Shown here: piece after piece, positions 28,340 to 55,111 of the stretch | Position numbering within the stretch: the stretch's first letter is position 1 | Layout of the letters: each line of letters begins with the position of its first letter | From: Chlorobiota bacterium | GTDB lineage: Bacteria; Bacteroidota; Chlorobiia; Chlorobiales; Chlorobiaceae | NCBI GenBank assembly: GCA_016866305.1 | Contig: VGMX01000002.1 | Span: 1-64,000 of the forward strand | Direction: 5' to 3' | Length of the DNA stretch: 64,000 nucleotides | The notes under the pieces: model-generated | The model's database searches: none | The model's input: only the letters and a program-made list of their open reading frames with translations | What the model was told of the DNA's origin: nothing | Position numbers and translations under genes: made by a program

Positions 28340-28360
28340 TCCTGCATTTTTATTGACTAT

Positions 28361-28388
28361 CCCGGCAGACACCTGCCGGGATTTTTTT
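28361..28388 (+). terminator. Rho-independent terminator between trxA and trxB
   Basis: A perfect 8-bp stem, CCCGGCAG and CTGCCGGG, has a 4-base loop and is followed by A then seven T. It starts 21 bp after the trxA stop and 31 bp before the trxB start, so trxB is probably read by partial readthrough or from a promoter further upstream. Confidence 0.9.
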
Positions 28389-28418
28389 ATCACAACTTTC
28401 CTATCAACGATCGGAACT

Positions 28419-29354
28419 ATGGAAAAGGAAATCCGGGATGTCGTCATCATCGGAACCGGTCCCGCAGGCTACACTGCAGCCATTTATACCGGCCGCGCCA
28501 ACCTGAAACCGCTGGTTGTCGAGGGCATGCAGCCGGGCGGTCAGCTCATGATCACTACCGATATCGAGAATTTTCCGGGTTTTCCCGAGGGTATCAACGG
28601 ACCGGAACTCATGTCGAGAATGCGCCGGCAGGCAGAGCGGTTCAATGCGGAATTCGTTTACGGCAGCGTCGTGGAAGCCGATCTTTCCAGAAGCCCTTGT
28701 TCCCTCCTGCTCGACGACGGACGGGAGATCGTGGCGCGGGCCGTCGTCATCGCCACCGGGGCCAACGCCAAATGGCTCGGCATCGAATCCGAGGACCGCT
28801 ACAGGGGAAGGGGTGTCTCGGCCTGCGCCACCTGTGACGGCTTCTTTTTCAAGGAGTGCAGGGTGTTTGTGATCGGCGGCGGCGATACTGCCATGGAAGA
28901 GGCACTCTATCTCACCAAGTTCGCTTCCGAGGTGACGCTCGTGCACAGACGGGATGAATTCCGTGCATCGAAAATCATGAGCCTGCGTGCCGGCAAGAAT
29001 CCGAAAATAAAAACCCTCCTGAATGCAGTCGTTGACGAGATACTTGGTGACGGCCAGAAGGTTACCGGCATCAGGCTGAAGGATGTTCGCACCGGGGATC
29101 TCTCCGAGCATCCCTGCGATGGCGTGTTCGTGGCTATCGGCCATGAGCCGAACGCCCGGCTTTTCGAGGGTCAGCTCGCCATCGACGACTACGGCTACAT
29201 CGAAACGAAAAAATCGTCCACCGAAACCAGTGTGCCGGGGGTTTTCGCCTGCGGTGACGTGCAGGACTACACCTACCGCCAGGCAGTGACCGCGGTAGGC
29301 TCGGGATGCATGGCCGCAGTTGACGCCGAGCGTTTCCTTGAGTCGATCCGGTGA
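28419..29354 (+). CDS. trxB: Thioredoxin reductase
   Basis: An FAD-dependent flavoenzyme that reduces thioredoxin. The FAD motif is [14 protein letters not shown] near the N terminus, the redox pair is Cys136 and Cys139 in [11 protein letters not shown], and the second nucleotide site is [15 protein letters not shown]. The C terminus has [18 protein letters not shown]. The 311-residue length and layout match the low-molecular-weight class. Start ATG 28419. The electron donor (NADPH or ferredoxin) is not decided by what I can see. Confidence 0.95.
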
Positions 29355-29400: not shown

Positions 29401-29620
29401 CTGCGTTTGCCCCCTGAACAGTTGCGGCAAGAAATTTTGTTTTTTCCCGGGTTCCGCCTATTGATTACCTTGCAGTAAATCCATTCCCGCCCCAACCTCT
29501 TCCTCGAGGTTCCGTGCGCGACCTGCAGTACCCTGTGGTTCGTCTTTCATCAGTTCCTGAAGAGTGCATCCCCGTTCTCCCGGACGGTTTTTTCCGAAAA
29601 CGCAGGAAGAAGGAGGCGTC

Positions 29621-32600
29621 ATGAAAGCATGTGAACACCGCGAGATCTCCGAAATGGACTGGAACGAGTTCGAGGATCGTTTACGCTCTGCCGCTGAACC
29701 CCTGCGTGCAGAAGCCGGGGCCGACAGGACACTGCTCGACTATTTCGGAAAAGAGGAGTACGGCTATCTGCAAAAGCTTGCCGGTCATGCCCGTTCGGTT
29801 CGCGCCAATGTGCAGGTTTCGGGTAACATTGTCCTGATTCCCGGCATCATGGGCTCGAACCTCGTGACGGTGAAACAGGGCGGGGAAAGAGGGCTTCTGT
29901 GGATCGACCTGTTGCGCCTGGCGACCGGCAGGATCAGCCGTATGCGGCTCTCTCCCGATGGAGCGCACGATACCGACGCCGAATATACCGTCACGCCTTC
30001 CGACATCAACAAGCGATCATACGCAAGGGCGGTTCTCTGGCTTCGTGCCTCATGGAATGTCGAGACGTTCGCCTATGACTGGCGCAAGGATATCGATGCA
30101 GCCGCCGATGCGCTTGCCGTGTTTCTGCAGCAGCGTTTTCCCCGTCAGCCGGTTCACCTTGTGGCCCATTCGATGGGCGGTCTTGTCTGCCGGAACTTCA
30201 TCGTCAGGCATGCCGAGCAGTGGAACAGCATGCAGGGAAAGGATGGAACAGCGGGCGGCCGGCTTGTCATGCTCGGCACCCCGAACTACGGTTCATTCCT
30301 GATTCCCCAGGTGCTGACCGGAGAGGATCTTACCGTCAGGCTGCTTGCCGCGGCAGATATCACCCACACCCTGCAGGACATTCTCGGCGTAATCTGCACC
30401 TTTCCCGGCTGCTACCAGATGCTTCCCGCGCAAGGCAAGCTCTCTGCAGCACTGCAGACGCTCTACCGTCCCGACAGCTGGGGCTCCGGGCAGGTTTCGG
30501 ACCTGCACCTCGGCCGCGCCCTGAAGTTTCATGCGGCAATGGAGCGTCCCGAGAGCATCGACCCGGAACGAATGATCTGTATCGCGGGGTGCAACAGGGA
30601 GACCCCCTGCGACATGACCATCAACGCGCCGGGTGATTTCGACTACCTGGTGACATACGAGGGGGACGGCTGTGTGCCGCATGCCCTTGGACTGCTTCCG
30701 AACGTTCCCGTTTACTACATCGACGAATCGCATGGTGACCTTCTGCGGAACGAAAAAGTGCTCAATGCGGTCAGCGACCTGCTTGTCTGCGGCCGTACCT
30801 CGGTGCTTTCCGACAAACCCATTCTGTCGAGGGTGGCAGGGCATGCCCTCTATCAGCGCCGAAGCCCGGGACGTGACCAGGCCATCACCGCCGGGATCAG
30901 GGCGATAGCGGAACGCGCCGGTGCAGGAACATGTGCTCCCGGAGAGATCGCCTTTGCCGAAGAAACCATCATGCGTTCGGTCATGGGACGTTACCGCACC
31001 GGGACACCGCCACGGAACGAAGCGGCAAGGCACGAACCCCTGTCCCCGGCGAAGATCGAACTTGCCATCCAGCTTGTCCATGACGATGTGACCCGCGTCA
31101 AGAGTCCTGCGGTGGTTATCGGTCATTACCGGGGCGTTGACCCCGTCAATGCCGAGGGAGCAGTGGATGCAGCCATGAACCGCATGATCACCTTAGCCAA
31201 TGAACAGGGAATTATCGGCGGCGGGCTCGGGGAGCTGTTTTTCATTCCCGTCACCGGAAAGCAGATTGCAGCGTCGAGCGTTATTCTGGCCGGCATGGGC
31301 GAAGAAGGGCATTTTACAAAGGATGACCTGCGCTACCTCATGACCAACGTCACGCTTTCGGTTTCGGCCCTCGGTATGGATTCCTTCGCCATGGTCGTGA
31401 TCGGCTCGGGACAGGGAAGCATCTCCAAGGAGCGCGCACTGGCAAGCATTATCGAGGGCGTATCGGACGGACTGAGACGTTTTTCCGCTGAGAACCGCAG
31501 TGTCAGGAAGCTGGTGTTCGTCGAGCGCGACGGGCAGCAGTACGACATCATCAGGGAGATCATCGAGAAGAAGTTCCTTGAAAAGCAGGATATTCTTTTT
31601 CCCTGCCTTGCATTGAAGGCAAGCTTCCCCGGCCCTCGCCGCAAGGATCGGCCCGCAGGGCGGCAAAAGGGGGCAATGCGTCCGGAACCGGAGAGCCGCA
31701 AGCTCCGCGGCACAAGAATCACCATCGAACGCAGCAGCACCGAGGATCATGAAACCTTCCGGTTTTCGGCGCTGAGCAACAGTGCGGTCATTCCGGTGCG
31801 GGAGGTGGAGGTGCAGCGATTTTTCCTGAAAGGGGCATCGGAGCGTCTGATGACATCCGCGACACTCGAGGAGCAGTCCGGGTACGGCCACCTGCTGGCC
31901 TCCTATCTTTTTCCGCAGGATTTCCGGGCGCTTGTCGACCAGGAGGAGTCGCTCACCCTCATTCTCGATCGCAGCACCGCATCCTACCCGTGGGAGATGG
32001 CGTGCTTCAGGAGAGCCCGCCAGCAGACGTTCCTCGGTACCGGACGGAAGCTTACCCGGCAGTTCAGGACCATCCTCTCCTCTCCGGGCCTGATGCCCCC
32101 CCTTAACCGCTCGCTGAAAGCGCTCGTGATCGCCGATCCCGCCCCCGAACGGGAGTTCCAGCTCGACGGTGCCAGAAGGGAGGGACGCGCGGTTGCCGAG
32201 GTGCTCAGGAGCTTCAGTTCGGAACTGGAGATAACCGTGCATGAGCGGATCGGGGCTGCGGCATGCGATCCGGTGGAAATCCTCTCCCTGCTGTTCAGCG
32301 AGGAATATGACCTTGTGCACTACGCCGGGCATGGCGTTTTTGACGAAAAGAGCCCGGTTCGCAGCGGATGGTTTTTCAGCAGGGAATGCATCCTTTCGCC
32401 ACGTGAAATATTCCAGTTGCGCAGGGTTCCCCGCCTGGTGTTCGCAAATGCCTGTTTTTCCGCTGTGGTCAAGGAGCGTCCGGCAATGGGCCTGGATGAA
32501 GGAAATCGCGGTCTTGCCGGGCTTGCCGAGGCATTTTTCGAACGCGGTGTCCAGAACTACATCGGAGCGGGATGGCCGGTCGATGATGAGCCGGCGGCGG

Positions 32601-32758
32601 CTTTTGCCCGCGAGTTCTACCGGCACGCCCTTTCGGGGAAGCCATTGGGAGAGGCGCTTGCCGCAGCAAGGGAGTGCATCCAGGACAAAGGCCCCACCTG
32701 GGGCGCTTACCAGCATTACGGCCAGGCCGATGCCTCTCTGGTGCGGCCAGCATCGTAA
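29621..32758 (+). CDS. Lipase-like / M17-N-like / CHAT protease fusion protein
   Basis: A 1045-residue protein of three recognisable parts. Residues about 60-400 are an alpha/beta hydrolase resembling LCAT/lipase enzymes: oxyanion segment LIPGIMGSNL, nucleophile elbow VAHSMGGLV (Ser184), then GDGCVP (Asp349) and ESHGD (His371) as a likely triad. Residues about 477-650 resemble the macro-like N domain of M17 leucyl aminopeptidases (VVIGHYRGVDPVNAEGAVD, VILAGMGEEGHFTKDDLR); the M17 catalytic domain is missing. Residues about 735-1045 form a CHAT domain, the caspase-like peptidase, with dyad His904 (YAGHGVF) and Cys945 (ANACFSA). Start ATG 29621 has AGGAGG 4 bases ahead. No signal peptide was seen. 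A small ORF follows 107 bp on. Substrate and role are unknown; a defence or regulated-death effector is one inference. Confidence 0.85.
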   Translation: MKACEHREISEMDWNEFEDRLRSAAEPLRAEAGADRTLLDYFGKEEYGYLQKLAGHARSVRANVQVSGNIVLIPGIMGSNLVTVKQGGERGLLWIDLLRLATGRISRMRLSPDGAHDTDAEYTVTPSDINKRSYARAVLWLRASWNVETFAYDWRKDIDAAADALAVFLQQRFPRQPVHLVAHSMGGLVCRNFIVRHAEQWNSMQGKDGTAGGRLVMLGTPNYGSFLIPQVLTGEDLTVRLLAAADITHTLQDILGVICTFPGCYQMLPAQGKLSAALQTLYRPDSWGSGQVSDLHLGRALKFHAAMERPESIDPERMICIAGCNRETPCDMTINAPGDFDYLVTYEGDGCVPHALGLLPNVPVYYIDESHGDLLRNEKVLNAVSDLLVCGRTSVLSDKPILSRVAGHALYQRRSPGRDQAITAGIRAIAERAGAGTCAPGEIAFAEETIMRSVMGRYRTGTPPRNEAARHEPLSPAKIELAIQLVHDDVTRVKSPAVVIGHYRGVDPVNAEGAVDAAMNRMITLANEQGIIGGGLGELFFIPVTGKQIAASSVILAGMGEEGHFTKDDLRYLMTNVTLSVSALGMDSFAMVVIGSGQGSISKERALASIIEGVSDGLRRFSAENRSVRKLVFVERDGQQYDIIREIIEKKFLEKQDILFPCLALKASFPGPRRKDRPAGRQKGAMRPEPESRKLRGTRITIERSSTEDHETFRFSALSNSAVIPVREVEVQRFFLKGASERLMTSATLEEQSGYGHLLASYLFPQDFRALVDQEESLTLILDRSTASYPWEMACFRRARQQTFLGTGRKLTRQFRTILSSPGLMPPLNRSLKALVIADPAPEREFQLDGARREGRAVAEVLRSFSSELEITVHERIGAAACDPVEILSLLFSEEYDLVHYAGHGVFDEKSPVRSGWFFSRECILSPREIFQLRRVPRLVFANACFSAVVKERPAMGLDEGNRGLAGLAEAFFERGVQNYIGAGWPVDDEPAAAFAREFYRHALSGKPLGEALAAARECIQDKGPTWGAYQHYGQADASLVRPAS

Positions 32759-32865: not shown

Positions 32866-33231
32866 ATGCAGCACATCAAGCCGTTCAGGATCGAGATCGA
32901 GTGGACCGATCAGGAGAACTTCCTTTTTTCCTGCCACTATCACGAAGCCTCCCCATCCCGGCATCGGCAGCTTTCCTGTGTGCCGGAGCGCCGGTATTTT
33001 CCCGTTATGACCAGAGCCATGGGCAACGTGCTGCGCAAGCTGCGCCGGGAGCATATCTCCTTTCCGCTTTTTCTGGTAACGCTTGCATTCGAACATCGCC
33101 ATCTTCTCGCCGAAATCGACCAGTTGCTGCAGGCGTTGCACGCACACCTCCGGACACAGAAAAGGGCGGGAAGCTGGAGCTGCTATATTTGCGGGGAAAC
33201 GGGACGTCCCTCCTCGTCGAGCGGGGGGTAG
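32866..33231 (+). CDS. Small uncharacterised protein downstream of the CHAT gene
   Basis: A 121-residue ORF with coding-like codon use (strong G/C bias at third positions). ATG 32866 is preceded by AGGGGA. The sequence is His/Arg-rich, has a central hydrophobic helix (FPLFLVTLAFEHRHLLAEI) and a CxxC pair near the C terminus (CYICGE). I recognise no family. Its 3' end overlaps the convergent trmH gene by 49 bp. Position and orientation suggest it may be expressed with the lipase-CHAT gene, as a partner, regulator or substrate. That is inference. Confidence 0.5.
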   Translation: MQHIKPFRIEIEWTDQENFLFSCHYHEASPSRHRQLSCVPERRYFPVMTRAMGNVLRKLRREHISFPLFLVTLAFEHRHLLAEIDQLLQALHAHLRTQKRAGSWSCYICGETGRPSSSSGG

Positions 33232-33842
33232 CCGATTCCTTTTGAGCGGAGATGTTCGCCGAGGCGCGGGTAGGTGTACTCGAAGAGCAGGCGCTCTATC
33301 TCTGTTTCGGGCAGCGAGGGCCGGTCATACATTCCCGCAAGCAGACGCTGGCGCTGCGCCTCGAACACGATGAGCGCTCCGGCGACCGACACATTGAGCG
33401 ATTCCACCATGCCGAACATCGGCACGACGATGCACCGGTCGGCTCCCTGCACGGCTTCCGCTGAAATTCCGTCCCACTCCGCCCCGAGCACCACTGCTGT
33501 CGGCACGGTGTAGTCGATCTCCCTGAAATCCGCGCTTGCTGCGGTTGAGGCCGCAGCAAGAATCTGCATGCCCTCCTGCCGGAGCCGGCTGTAAACGCTT
33601 CCGATATCCCGGTACAGATTGATCGAGACCCACTTGCTCGACCCGGCAGCGGCGTTATGGCGCGTGAAAATATGCTTGCGGTACGATACCGCGTGCACTT
33701 CATGAATGCCTGCGGCGTCGCAGCTCCTGATGATGGCCGAGAGGTTGTGGGATTTGTTGACATTGTCCATGACAACGGTCAGCCCGGTCTGTCGCCGCCG
33801 GAGCATCCGGAGGATTTTCCTGAATCGTTCGGAAGATGCCAA
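33183..33842 (-). CDS. trmH: tRNA (guanosine-18) 2'-O-methyltransferase
   Basis: A SPOUT-family enzyme that methylates the ribose of G18 in the tRNA D-loop. Family blocks are NKSHNLSAIIRSCDAAG (motif 1), LGAEWDGIS (motif 2) and VPMFGMVESLNVSVAGAL (motif 3, the trefoil-knot SAM site). The 219 residues and the N-terminal YARICEML-like segment match TrmH rather than RlmB. The start is TTG 33842, chosen because the N terminus aligns with the family there; ATG 33806 is the alternative. Its 3' end overlaps the convergent small ORF. Confidence 0.92.
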   Translation of the reverse strand: MASSERFRKILRMLRRRQTGLTVVMDNVNKSHNLSAIIRSCDAAGIHEVHAVSYRKHIFTRHNAAAGSSKWVSINLYRDIGSVYSRLRQEGMQILAAASTAASADFREIDYTVPTAVVLGAEWDGISAEAVQGADRCIVVPMFGMVESLNVSVAGALIVFEAQRQRLLAGMYDRPSLPETEIERLLFEYTYPRLGEHLRSKGIGYPPLDEEGRPVSPQI

Positions 33843-54932: not shown

Positions 54933-55019
54933 TGGTACCAAAGGTGGGACTCGAACCCACACGAGTTTGCACTCACTGGATTTTGAGTCCAGCGCGTCTA
55001 CCAGTTCCGCCACTTTGGC
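54933..55019 (-). tRNA. tRNA-Leu (anticodon CAA)
   Basis: A class II tRNA of 87 nt on the minus strand. The acceptor stem GCCAAAG pairs with CTTTGGT (G1:U72 wobble), the anticodon stem CTGGA/TCCAG has loop CTCAAAA with anticodon CAA, there is a short variable arm and a GGGTTCGAGTCCC T arm. The 3' CCA is encoded in the DNA. Confidence 0.93.
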
Positions 55020-55029
55020 ATGTTTCGGG

Positions 55030-55111
55030 TGCGAGAGAAGGGACTCGAACCCTTACGCCTTTCGGCACTAGTTCCTAAGACTAGCGTGTATACCAATTTC
55101 ACCACTCTCGC
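55030..55111 (-). tRNA. tRNA-Leu (anticodon UAG)
   Basis: A class II tRNA, 82 nt to the discriminator base. The acceptor stem GCGAGAG pairs with CTCTCGC, discriminator A, anticodon loop CTTAGGA giving UAG, long variable arm (TGCCGAAAGGCG), T arm GGGTTCGAGTCCC. The next bases are CCC, so CCA is not encoded, unlike the neighbouring tRNA-Leu 10 bp downstream. Confidence 0.93.

Follow-up and report, generated by a model that had tools for sequence, protein, structure and literature searches.

This analysis concerns one gene, and the family to which it belongs, in a 64,000-nucleotide stretch of DNA from a Chlorobiota bacterium (GenBank assembly GCA_016866305.1, contig VGMX01000002.1, positions 1 to 64,000 of the forward strand), hereafter the window. 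An open frame on the plus strand (29621-32758) encodes a single chain of 1045 amino acids, in which three Pfam domains exceeded their cut-offs: a lipase resembling LCAT and lysosomal phospholipase A2 (LPLA2), the N domain of M17 aminopeptidases (M17-N), which has a macro-domain fold, and a CHAT protease. The three-part chain proposed in an earlier note on this DNA is confirmed as one intact gene, together with the five catalytic residues named there (Ser184, Asp349, His371, His904 and Cys945), and examination of its relatives revealed a further component, a separate caspase (Peptidase_C14, here C14) gene that recurs as their partner.

Translation probably starts at ATG 29621, which we favored over a possible GTG start upstream at 29564 because AAGGAGG, a likely Shine-Dalgarno sequence read at 29610-29616 on the plus strand, lies four bases upstream of the ATG. 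A copy in a relative of the same genus encodes a protein 62% identical to that of the window and is interrupted by an in-frame TGA, with the rest conserved. Over 881 codons, the part of that copy after its stop, dN was 0.27 and dS 2.2 (saturated), with changes mostly in third codon positions, a pattern indicating that the window gene is under purifying selection. The TGA itself lies around L003 10417-10457 / L057, and may be an assembly error or a true break.

Domain architecture and predicted folds

Pfam hits were judged by curated cut-offs and listed up to E 1, while structure was modeled with AlphaFold2 on a 34-row alignment and fold matches were scored with VIA-align (Z). The model of the whole protein (mean pLDDT 84.1, pTM 0.51) yielded three folded domains of the kinds expected in the earlier note. 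Its pLDDT fell below 50 at residues 29-31, 404-413, 460-475, 674-694 and 818-824, from which we take the domains to be folded and their mutual arrangement to be uncertain.

The LCAT/LPLA2-like alpha/beta-hydrolase spans residues 66-394 (29816-30802, plus strand), and carries a Pfam LCAT match at residues 146-244 (1.1e-5, 25.2 bits, cut-off 21) and a weak DUF7379 match over the nucleophile region. It aligned with LPLA2 (4x97) at Z 30.3 (rmsd 2.7, 306 residues aligned) and with LCAT structures at Z up to 27.0, the two kinds of fold together giving Z 25-30, and matched 4x90 by profile (E 1e-6). By Pfam cut-off, predicted fold and Ser-Asp-His residues, the protein belongs to the LCAT/LPLA2 family, with putative phospholipase activity.

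The M17-N domain (residues 477-672; 31049-31636, plus strand) matched Peptidase_M17_N at residues 499-622 (7.3e-8, 32.8 bits, cut-off 23.4), and reached a pLDDT of 95.7 when modeled alone. This separate model aligned with the N domain of an M17 aminopeptidase (8pzm) at Z 20.0, with macroH2A1.1 (1yd9) at Z 19.1 (rmsd 2.7, 170 aligned) and with macro domains generally, ADP-ribose complexes included, at Z about 17-19; Gly-rich loops are conserved in the domain. Pfam, as described in an excerpt of PMC6500376, places M17-N in the Macro clan; the Macro family itself (PF01661) gave no match to the window protein at E up to 1. Only the N-domain model was matched, as the earlier note had it, with no Pfam match to the C-terminal metallopeptidase domain of M17 leucine aminopeptidases, and by this measure the protein is not an M17 peptidase, though it has the M17 N domain.

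The CHAT domain, a caspase/separase-like protease (residues 736-1041; 31826-32743, plus strand), gave the Pfam match CHAT (PF12770) at residues 759-1034 (7.5e-31, 108.1 bits, cut-off 24). It aligned with separase at Z 22.9, with Csx29/TPR-CHAT at Z about 19-21 (Csx29 21.2) and with SAVED-CHAT (8tl0) at Z 19.2 and rmsd 13.3, which means that the overall arrangement differs from that of SAVED-CHAT. Its domain score and its His/Cys dyad place the protein in the CHAT peptidase family, with putative proteolytic activity. No signal peptide was recognized in the protein by reading.

Catalytic residues and linkers

Conservation was read from a 64-row alignment, with counts over the rows that have a letter at the column. 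In the putative lipase triad, Ser184, the candidate nucleophile (30170-30172), is Ser in 46 of 51 rows, Asp349 (30665-30667) is kept in all 52 and His371 (30731-30733) in 50 of 52. In the CHAT dyad, His904 (32330-32332) is present in 60 of 61 rows, the remaining one being an unread X, and Cys945 (32453-32455) in 61 of 61; all five codons are on the plus strand. The lipase Ser has been lost in five rows, as Gly in three Hymenobacter and one Thermoleophilia, and as Ala in one Anaerolineales, whose protein has also lost the lipase His and carries a subtilase fused at its C-terminus. A near-invariant dyad beside a lipase Ser lost in 5/51 rows argues that the protease is the constant part of these proteins, and that the lipase is expendable in places.

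Two linkers, both variable in length and sequence, separate the domains. Linker 1 (residues 399-478; 30815-31054, plus strand) consists of two helices and disordered stretches, the latter including the low-pLDDT residues 404-413 and 460-475, and measures 75-121 residues in 34 rows. Linker 2 (residues 669-697; 31625-31711, plus strand) is predicted to be disordered, with pLDDT below 50 at 674-694, and is Lys/Arg-rich in composition.

Relatives and their distribution

Relatives were sought with a three-domain query in a single scan of genome contigs, which gave 54 loci. Profile searches over the loci found the lipase-M17N-CHAT order in 52 other open reading frames (ORFs), including a fragment of the broken L003 gene; with the conserved columns and the third-position changes, this recurrence argues that the architecture is not due to chance. 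M17N-CHAT without the lipase was found in 11 ORFs, including L023 and L054, which are cut by contig ends, L041, which is broken, and L049, which has a lipase piece directly upstream. There were also five lipase-only ORFs (three being pieces of broken or cut genes), three CHAT-only ORFs (two cut or partial), one lipase-CHAT ORF and one M17N fragment. M17-N plus CHAT is thus the core of the family, found in nearly every member examined; that M17-N accompanies CHAT is a statement about this sample, since the query carried all three domains. About 1800-residue relatives are found in L071-L074 and in plasmid loci L109-L111, with a DUF7379 domain ahead of the lipase in the two that were scanned (L071 and L109), and in L075 the DUF7379 domain replaces the lipase.

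Family members came from Nitrospirota, Acidobacteriota, Bacteroidota, Verrucomicrobiota, Planctomycetota, Chloroflexota, Thermomicrobiota, Gemmatimonadota, Actinomycetota, Myxococcota and Pseudomonadota. Within the phylum of the window, 9 of 394 sampled genomes matched at 1e-10, several only in part, and in one Nitrospira genus 4 of 29 genomes had a match, two of these at 30-35% identity. Plasmids contributed 12 matching records among 72,556, in five of which the match covers 80% or more of the query, and a single scan of viral contigs found no relative.

A recurrent caspase partner gene

The C14 gene was recognized as a recurrent neighbor cluster from two of its members and was then sought by profile, which recovered the caspases of L018, L047 and L051 that our gene calls, made by a codon-score heuristic, had missed. 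Of the 45 relatives' loci in which 900 nt or more precede the gene, 20 carry C14 there on the same strand, mostly at 16-222 bp (farther away in L006, L033 and L047); in L008 it is split over two frames, and in L018 it overlaps the main gene, by the chosen start. Catalytic His and Cys are retained in 21/21 C14 proteins, the twenty-first being that of L051, which is not upstream of its M17N-CHAT gene. Among Nitrospira-type loci with enough upstream sequence the gene is present in eight of ten. The chance of a C14 neighbor is about 0.0008 per locus, an estimate based on how densely C14 matches occur in 17 genomes, 15 of which carry the main gene and two of which do not.

A tree of 54 rows (leaving out L041, L023, L043, L049, L054, L055, L068 and the short L003 piece), in which support is weak for 18 of the 51 inner branches, places the C14-neighbor label on rows from Nitrospirota, Acidobacteriota, Bacteroidota, Thermomicrobiota and Actinomycetota. 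The label requires six changes, at least four of them forced by well-supported branches, and its presence in both large clades means that the partnership does not come from one family of near-copies. The window protein groups with its same-genus copy and L004 (support 99), and none of the three has a C14 neighbor. Such recurrence of a separate caspase gene (20/45) suggests that a protease works in trans. Both in Hymenobacter and in a second Bacteroidota genome, an Amidase_2 (peptidoglycan amidase-like) domain is fused ahead of the caspase upstream of the lipase-M17N-CHAT gene (L022:6947-9841 and L076:11656-14499).

Other neighbors

Several of the domains found next to family members or fused to them are known from bacterial conflict systems, some of them from PMC7159879. 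Among Nitrospira-type loci, upstream of the main gene lie a SIR2 gene in L011 and a weak TIR match in L015 (23.4 bits, below the cut-off of 28). In L006, C14 and the main gene are separated by a TPR-S-patatin gene, and in L012 the end of a patatin gene appears at the contig edge. Elsewhere in the family, L033 has an M23 peptidase neighbor, L032 a SIR2 neighbor and L056 an nSTAND1-WD40 gene nearby. Further modules are fused at the C-terminus, a PLD-like domain in L050 and a subtilase in L045, and in L044:4613-11227 a subtilase gene separates two M17N-CHAT genes arranged in tandem. One Rhizobium plasmid copy is accompanied by SIR2 and a non-specific nuclease, and on another Rhizobium plasmid an M17N-CHAT-TPR-S gene sits between two TIR-nSTAND1-WD40 genes (L112:3080-16970). 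An ECF sigma gene found downstream in Hymenobacteraceae was not used as evidence, because the surrounding region is syntenic in that family.

Genomic context of the window copy

Two genes that we regard as outside the system flank the window copy. On the left, at 28353-29354 on the plus strand, is a thioredoxin reductase gene (trxB, by reading), and on the right (32875-33842) are resident sequence from about 32875 and, on the minus strand, an RNA-methyltransferase-like gene, also by reading. The right-flank DNA is 73-77% identical to empty sites in L080 and L081, and in five genomes (L080, L081, L099, L100 and L105) trxB lies close to the methyltransferase-like gene with the window gene missing. 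The right-flank gene has a match in 53 genomes; in the 30 of these whose surrounding loci were retrieved, the window gene was beside it in two, the window itself and one same-genus relative. A housekeeping role suggested by the trxB neighbor was rejected, as the two flanking genes occur together without the window gene in those five loci. The earlier note had reasoned that a constant housekeeping neighborhood would count against its proposal; what we found is a patchy and mobile distribution, with empty sites in sister genomes and with no housekeeping neighborhood that stays constant among relatives, and the patchy spread and empty sites make an accessory gene that spreads horizontally the best reading of the window copy. 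The window genome has a single CHAT match, the window gene itself, and a single Peptidase_C14 match, a frame-shifted, broken remnant on another contig (G000 contig C15:43902-44195, L069). Elsewhere in the window, two adjacent tRNA-Leu genes lie at 54933-55111 on the minus strand.

Proposed mechanism and alternatives

We tentatively read the family as a signal-gated CHAT hub with swappable killing modules, akin to the SAVED-CHAT/caspase cascades, a reading that we hold to be quite possible and slightly short of probable. The domains, catalytic residues, caspase linkage, module swaps and patchiness are observed; what ligand is bound, in which order the parts are activated, what they act on and that they serve in defense are inferred. 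The macro fold of M17-N would bind a small-molecule danger signal, perhaps ADP-ribose-like, and the signal-bound domain would switch on the CHAT protease, which in turn would fire the killing modules. In cis, the killer would be the LCAT/LPLA2-like phospholipase, attacking the cell's own membrane; in trans, the killers next door would mostly be the Peptidase_C14 caspase, cleaved and activated by CHAT in a protease cascade, with SIR2, TIR-like or patatin proteins as alternatives. A cell under stress or infection would thereby stop growing or die. As the protein is alone in the window organism, the effect there would have to come from the phospholipase in cis and from direct substrates of CHAT. 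Macro-fold sensing is the weakest link in this model, resting as it does on fold similarity and conserved Gly-rich loops; the cascade step is suggested by gene linkage and the SAVED-CHAT precedent, and the lipase step by the LPLA2 fold and triad, its activity being predicted. A narrower version, a new class of signal-gated suicide switch, seems to us unlikely. In it an aminopeptidase N domain would have been co-opted as a receptor of macro type that recognizes an ADP-ribose-like signal and would act through CHAT on a built-in phospholipase and an operon caspase, thereby joining membrane lysis and an initiator-executioner cascade in one operon.

Several observations weigh against the signal-gated hub. 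The M17-N fold is equally close to aminopeptidase N domains and to ADP-ribose-binding macro domains, its profile match to 2dx6, which we take to be a macro-fold protein, was not significant (E 0.17), and to our knowledge the N domain of aminopeptidases is not known as a sensor. No upstream C14 gene is present in 25 of the 45 loci, and none adjoins the window copy; C14 occurs somewhere in 12 of 17 genomes, including G052, a close relative with an empty site, and the sister's genome has two C14 matches, neither beside the gene. The in-frame stop in the same genus and the broken C14 remnant further suggest possible decay of the system in the lineage of the window. With regard to defense, neighbors were taken within 2.6 kb, at 130 aa or more and one per cluster, excluding the family itself and the C14 cluster, which left 129, of which 120 were scanned. 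Many of them are ordinary metabolic genes, family counts among the 120 are small (nSTAND1 3, patatin 3, SIR2 2), and PADLOC gave scattered matches, with the commonest model at 3/120 among the 25 of 93 models listed and no background rate. SIR2, nSTAND, TIR and patatin genes do lie near some relatives, which supports the interpretation in the earlier note; the enrichment near defense genes that the note proposed to look for was not shown.

The mechanism given as an example in the earlier note, in which CHAT cuts its own linker and frees a membrane-attacking lipase, here taken to need no partner, appears to us unlikely. It would explain why lipase and protease share a chain in 52 other ORFs, it is consistent with the disordered linkers and the Lys/Arg-rich composition of linker 2, and it draws support from a plasmid lipase-trypsin fusion without M17-N or CHAT matches, which implies that lipase-protease fusion arose more than once. 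Against it, neither linker showed a conserved cleavage site by eye in 34 rows, the lipase Ser is lost in 5/51 rows that retain CHAT, and some members not cut by contig ends have no lipase (L026, two in L044, L051, L052 and L112). Of the interpretation given in the earlier note, which is partly supported overall, self-release of the lipase is the part that finds no support. The fusion just mentioned, on a Qingshengfaniella plasmid (L113:7926-10445), combines an LCAT-like lipase with a trypsin-like protease, with no M17-N/CHAT profile match. A different possibility, which we consider distinctly unlikely, is that the gene survives in the Chlorobium-like lineage as what is left of an earlier system of two genes, and is being lost. 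Such decay would account for the missing C14 neighbor, for a sole C14 match that is a broken remnant on a different contig, for the in-frame stop in the same-genus copy and for the empty site in other close genomes; it fits poorly with the intact window frame, the presence of every catalytic residue and the mostly third-position divergence from the same-genus relative.

It is improbable, in our judgment, that the protein is a housekeeping enzyme of lipid or stress metabolism, in which M17-N and CHAT merely regulate the phospholipase and there is no role in conflict or cell death. The LPLA2-like fold (Z 30) with its complete triad, the purifying selection, the many ordinary metabolic neighbors and a defense enrichment that was not shown would all suit such an enzyme. 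A very patchy spread (9/394 sampled genomes of the phylum, and 4/29 within a Nitrospira genus, where two of the matches are distant), plasmid copies, the recurrent caspase neighbor, the SIR2, TIR-like or patatin genes beside some members and the expendable lipase would not. Export of the protein as an antibacterial effector against competitors is highly improbable: the lipase does resemble the type VI effector Tle4 (4r1d; Z 23.2, rmsd 2.7), but LPLA2 and LCAT are closer, no signal peptide was recognized by reading, and no secretion family was found among the top 25 listed of 192 neighbor families.

Comparison with known systems

SAVED-CHAT, from type III-B CRISPR (PDB 8tl0), drives a caspase cascade, and it is the system that lipase-M17N-CHAT probably resembles most in its working, by analogy with a caspase partner. 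In both, CHAT is fused to a known or candidate signal-binding domain, and C14 lies beside the gene in relatives of the window gene. The window protein differs in having no SAVED domain by Pfam, the sensor candidate being the macro-fold M17-N, and in the phospholipase fused in front; the caspase partner beside the CHAT gene is likewise missing at the window copy and found in 20/45 relatives. SAVED-CHAT is named among the type III CRISPR proteases in an excerpt of PMC11417357. Craspase (type III-E) offers a similar CHAT fold in TPR-CHAT/Csx29 (Z 21.2 to Csx29), but no TPR family was matched in the window protein by Pfam. The Borvo protein BovA is a CHAT protease, according to part of PMC10952713, and its model is matched by the window CHAT region (8.9e-11), although over positions 511-667 only, 157/711 of the BovA model. 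By the features compared here, the window protein is neither Craspase, nor Borvo, nor SAVED-CHAT.

The lipase domain shares fold and triad residues with LPLA2 and LCAT, yet it is part of a multidomain protein with no signal peptide by reading. The nearest written precedent that we encountered is the pairing of caspase domains with neighboring alpha/beta-hydrolase genes in the VMAP / MoxR-vWA ternary conflict systems, as set out in Kaur et al. 2020 (PMC7159879), where CHAT and M17 have zero occurrences in the main text. In the window family the hydrolase forms one chain with M17-N and CHAT, and MoxR/vWA are absent from the 25 listed of 192 neighbor families. In type II and IV Thoeris, signals made by TIR proteins fire macro-domain and caspase-like effectors, as reported in part of PMC12847820, and a few relatives of the window gene have TIR or TIR-like neighbors. 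Literature searches for 'CHAT domain' with M17, lipase and caspase, or for 'CHAT domain' with lecithin and aminopeptidase, gave no match in a collection with few subscription journals and no bioRxiv preprints; Peptidase_M17_N and 'chat' occur together in two papers there, PMC6500376, in which 'chat' is a fragment of an author's name, and PMC7296678, on a nematode aminopeptidase.

If the signal-gated hub is correct, the family would add a further kind of CHAT-to-caspase cascade to the one known from CRISPR, its sensor domain being taken from a metabolic enzyme and its phospholipase executioner being part of the CHAT chain itself. Such a cascade would also tie NAD-derived signaling (TIR, SIR2 and the macro fold) to bacterial caspase-like proteolysis, in a compact two-gene system that is testable in E. 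coli.

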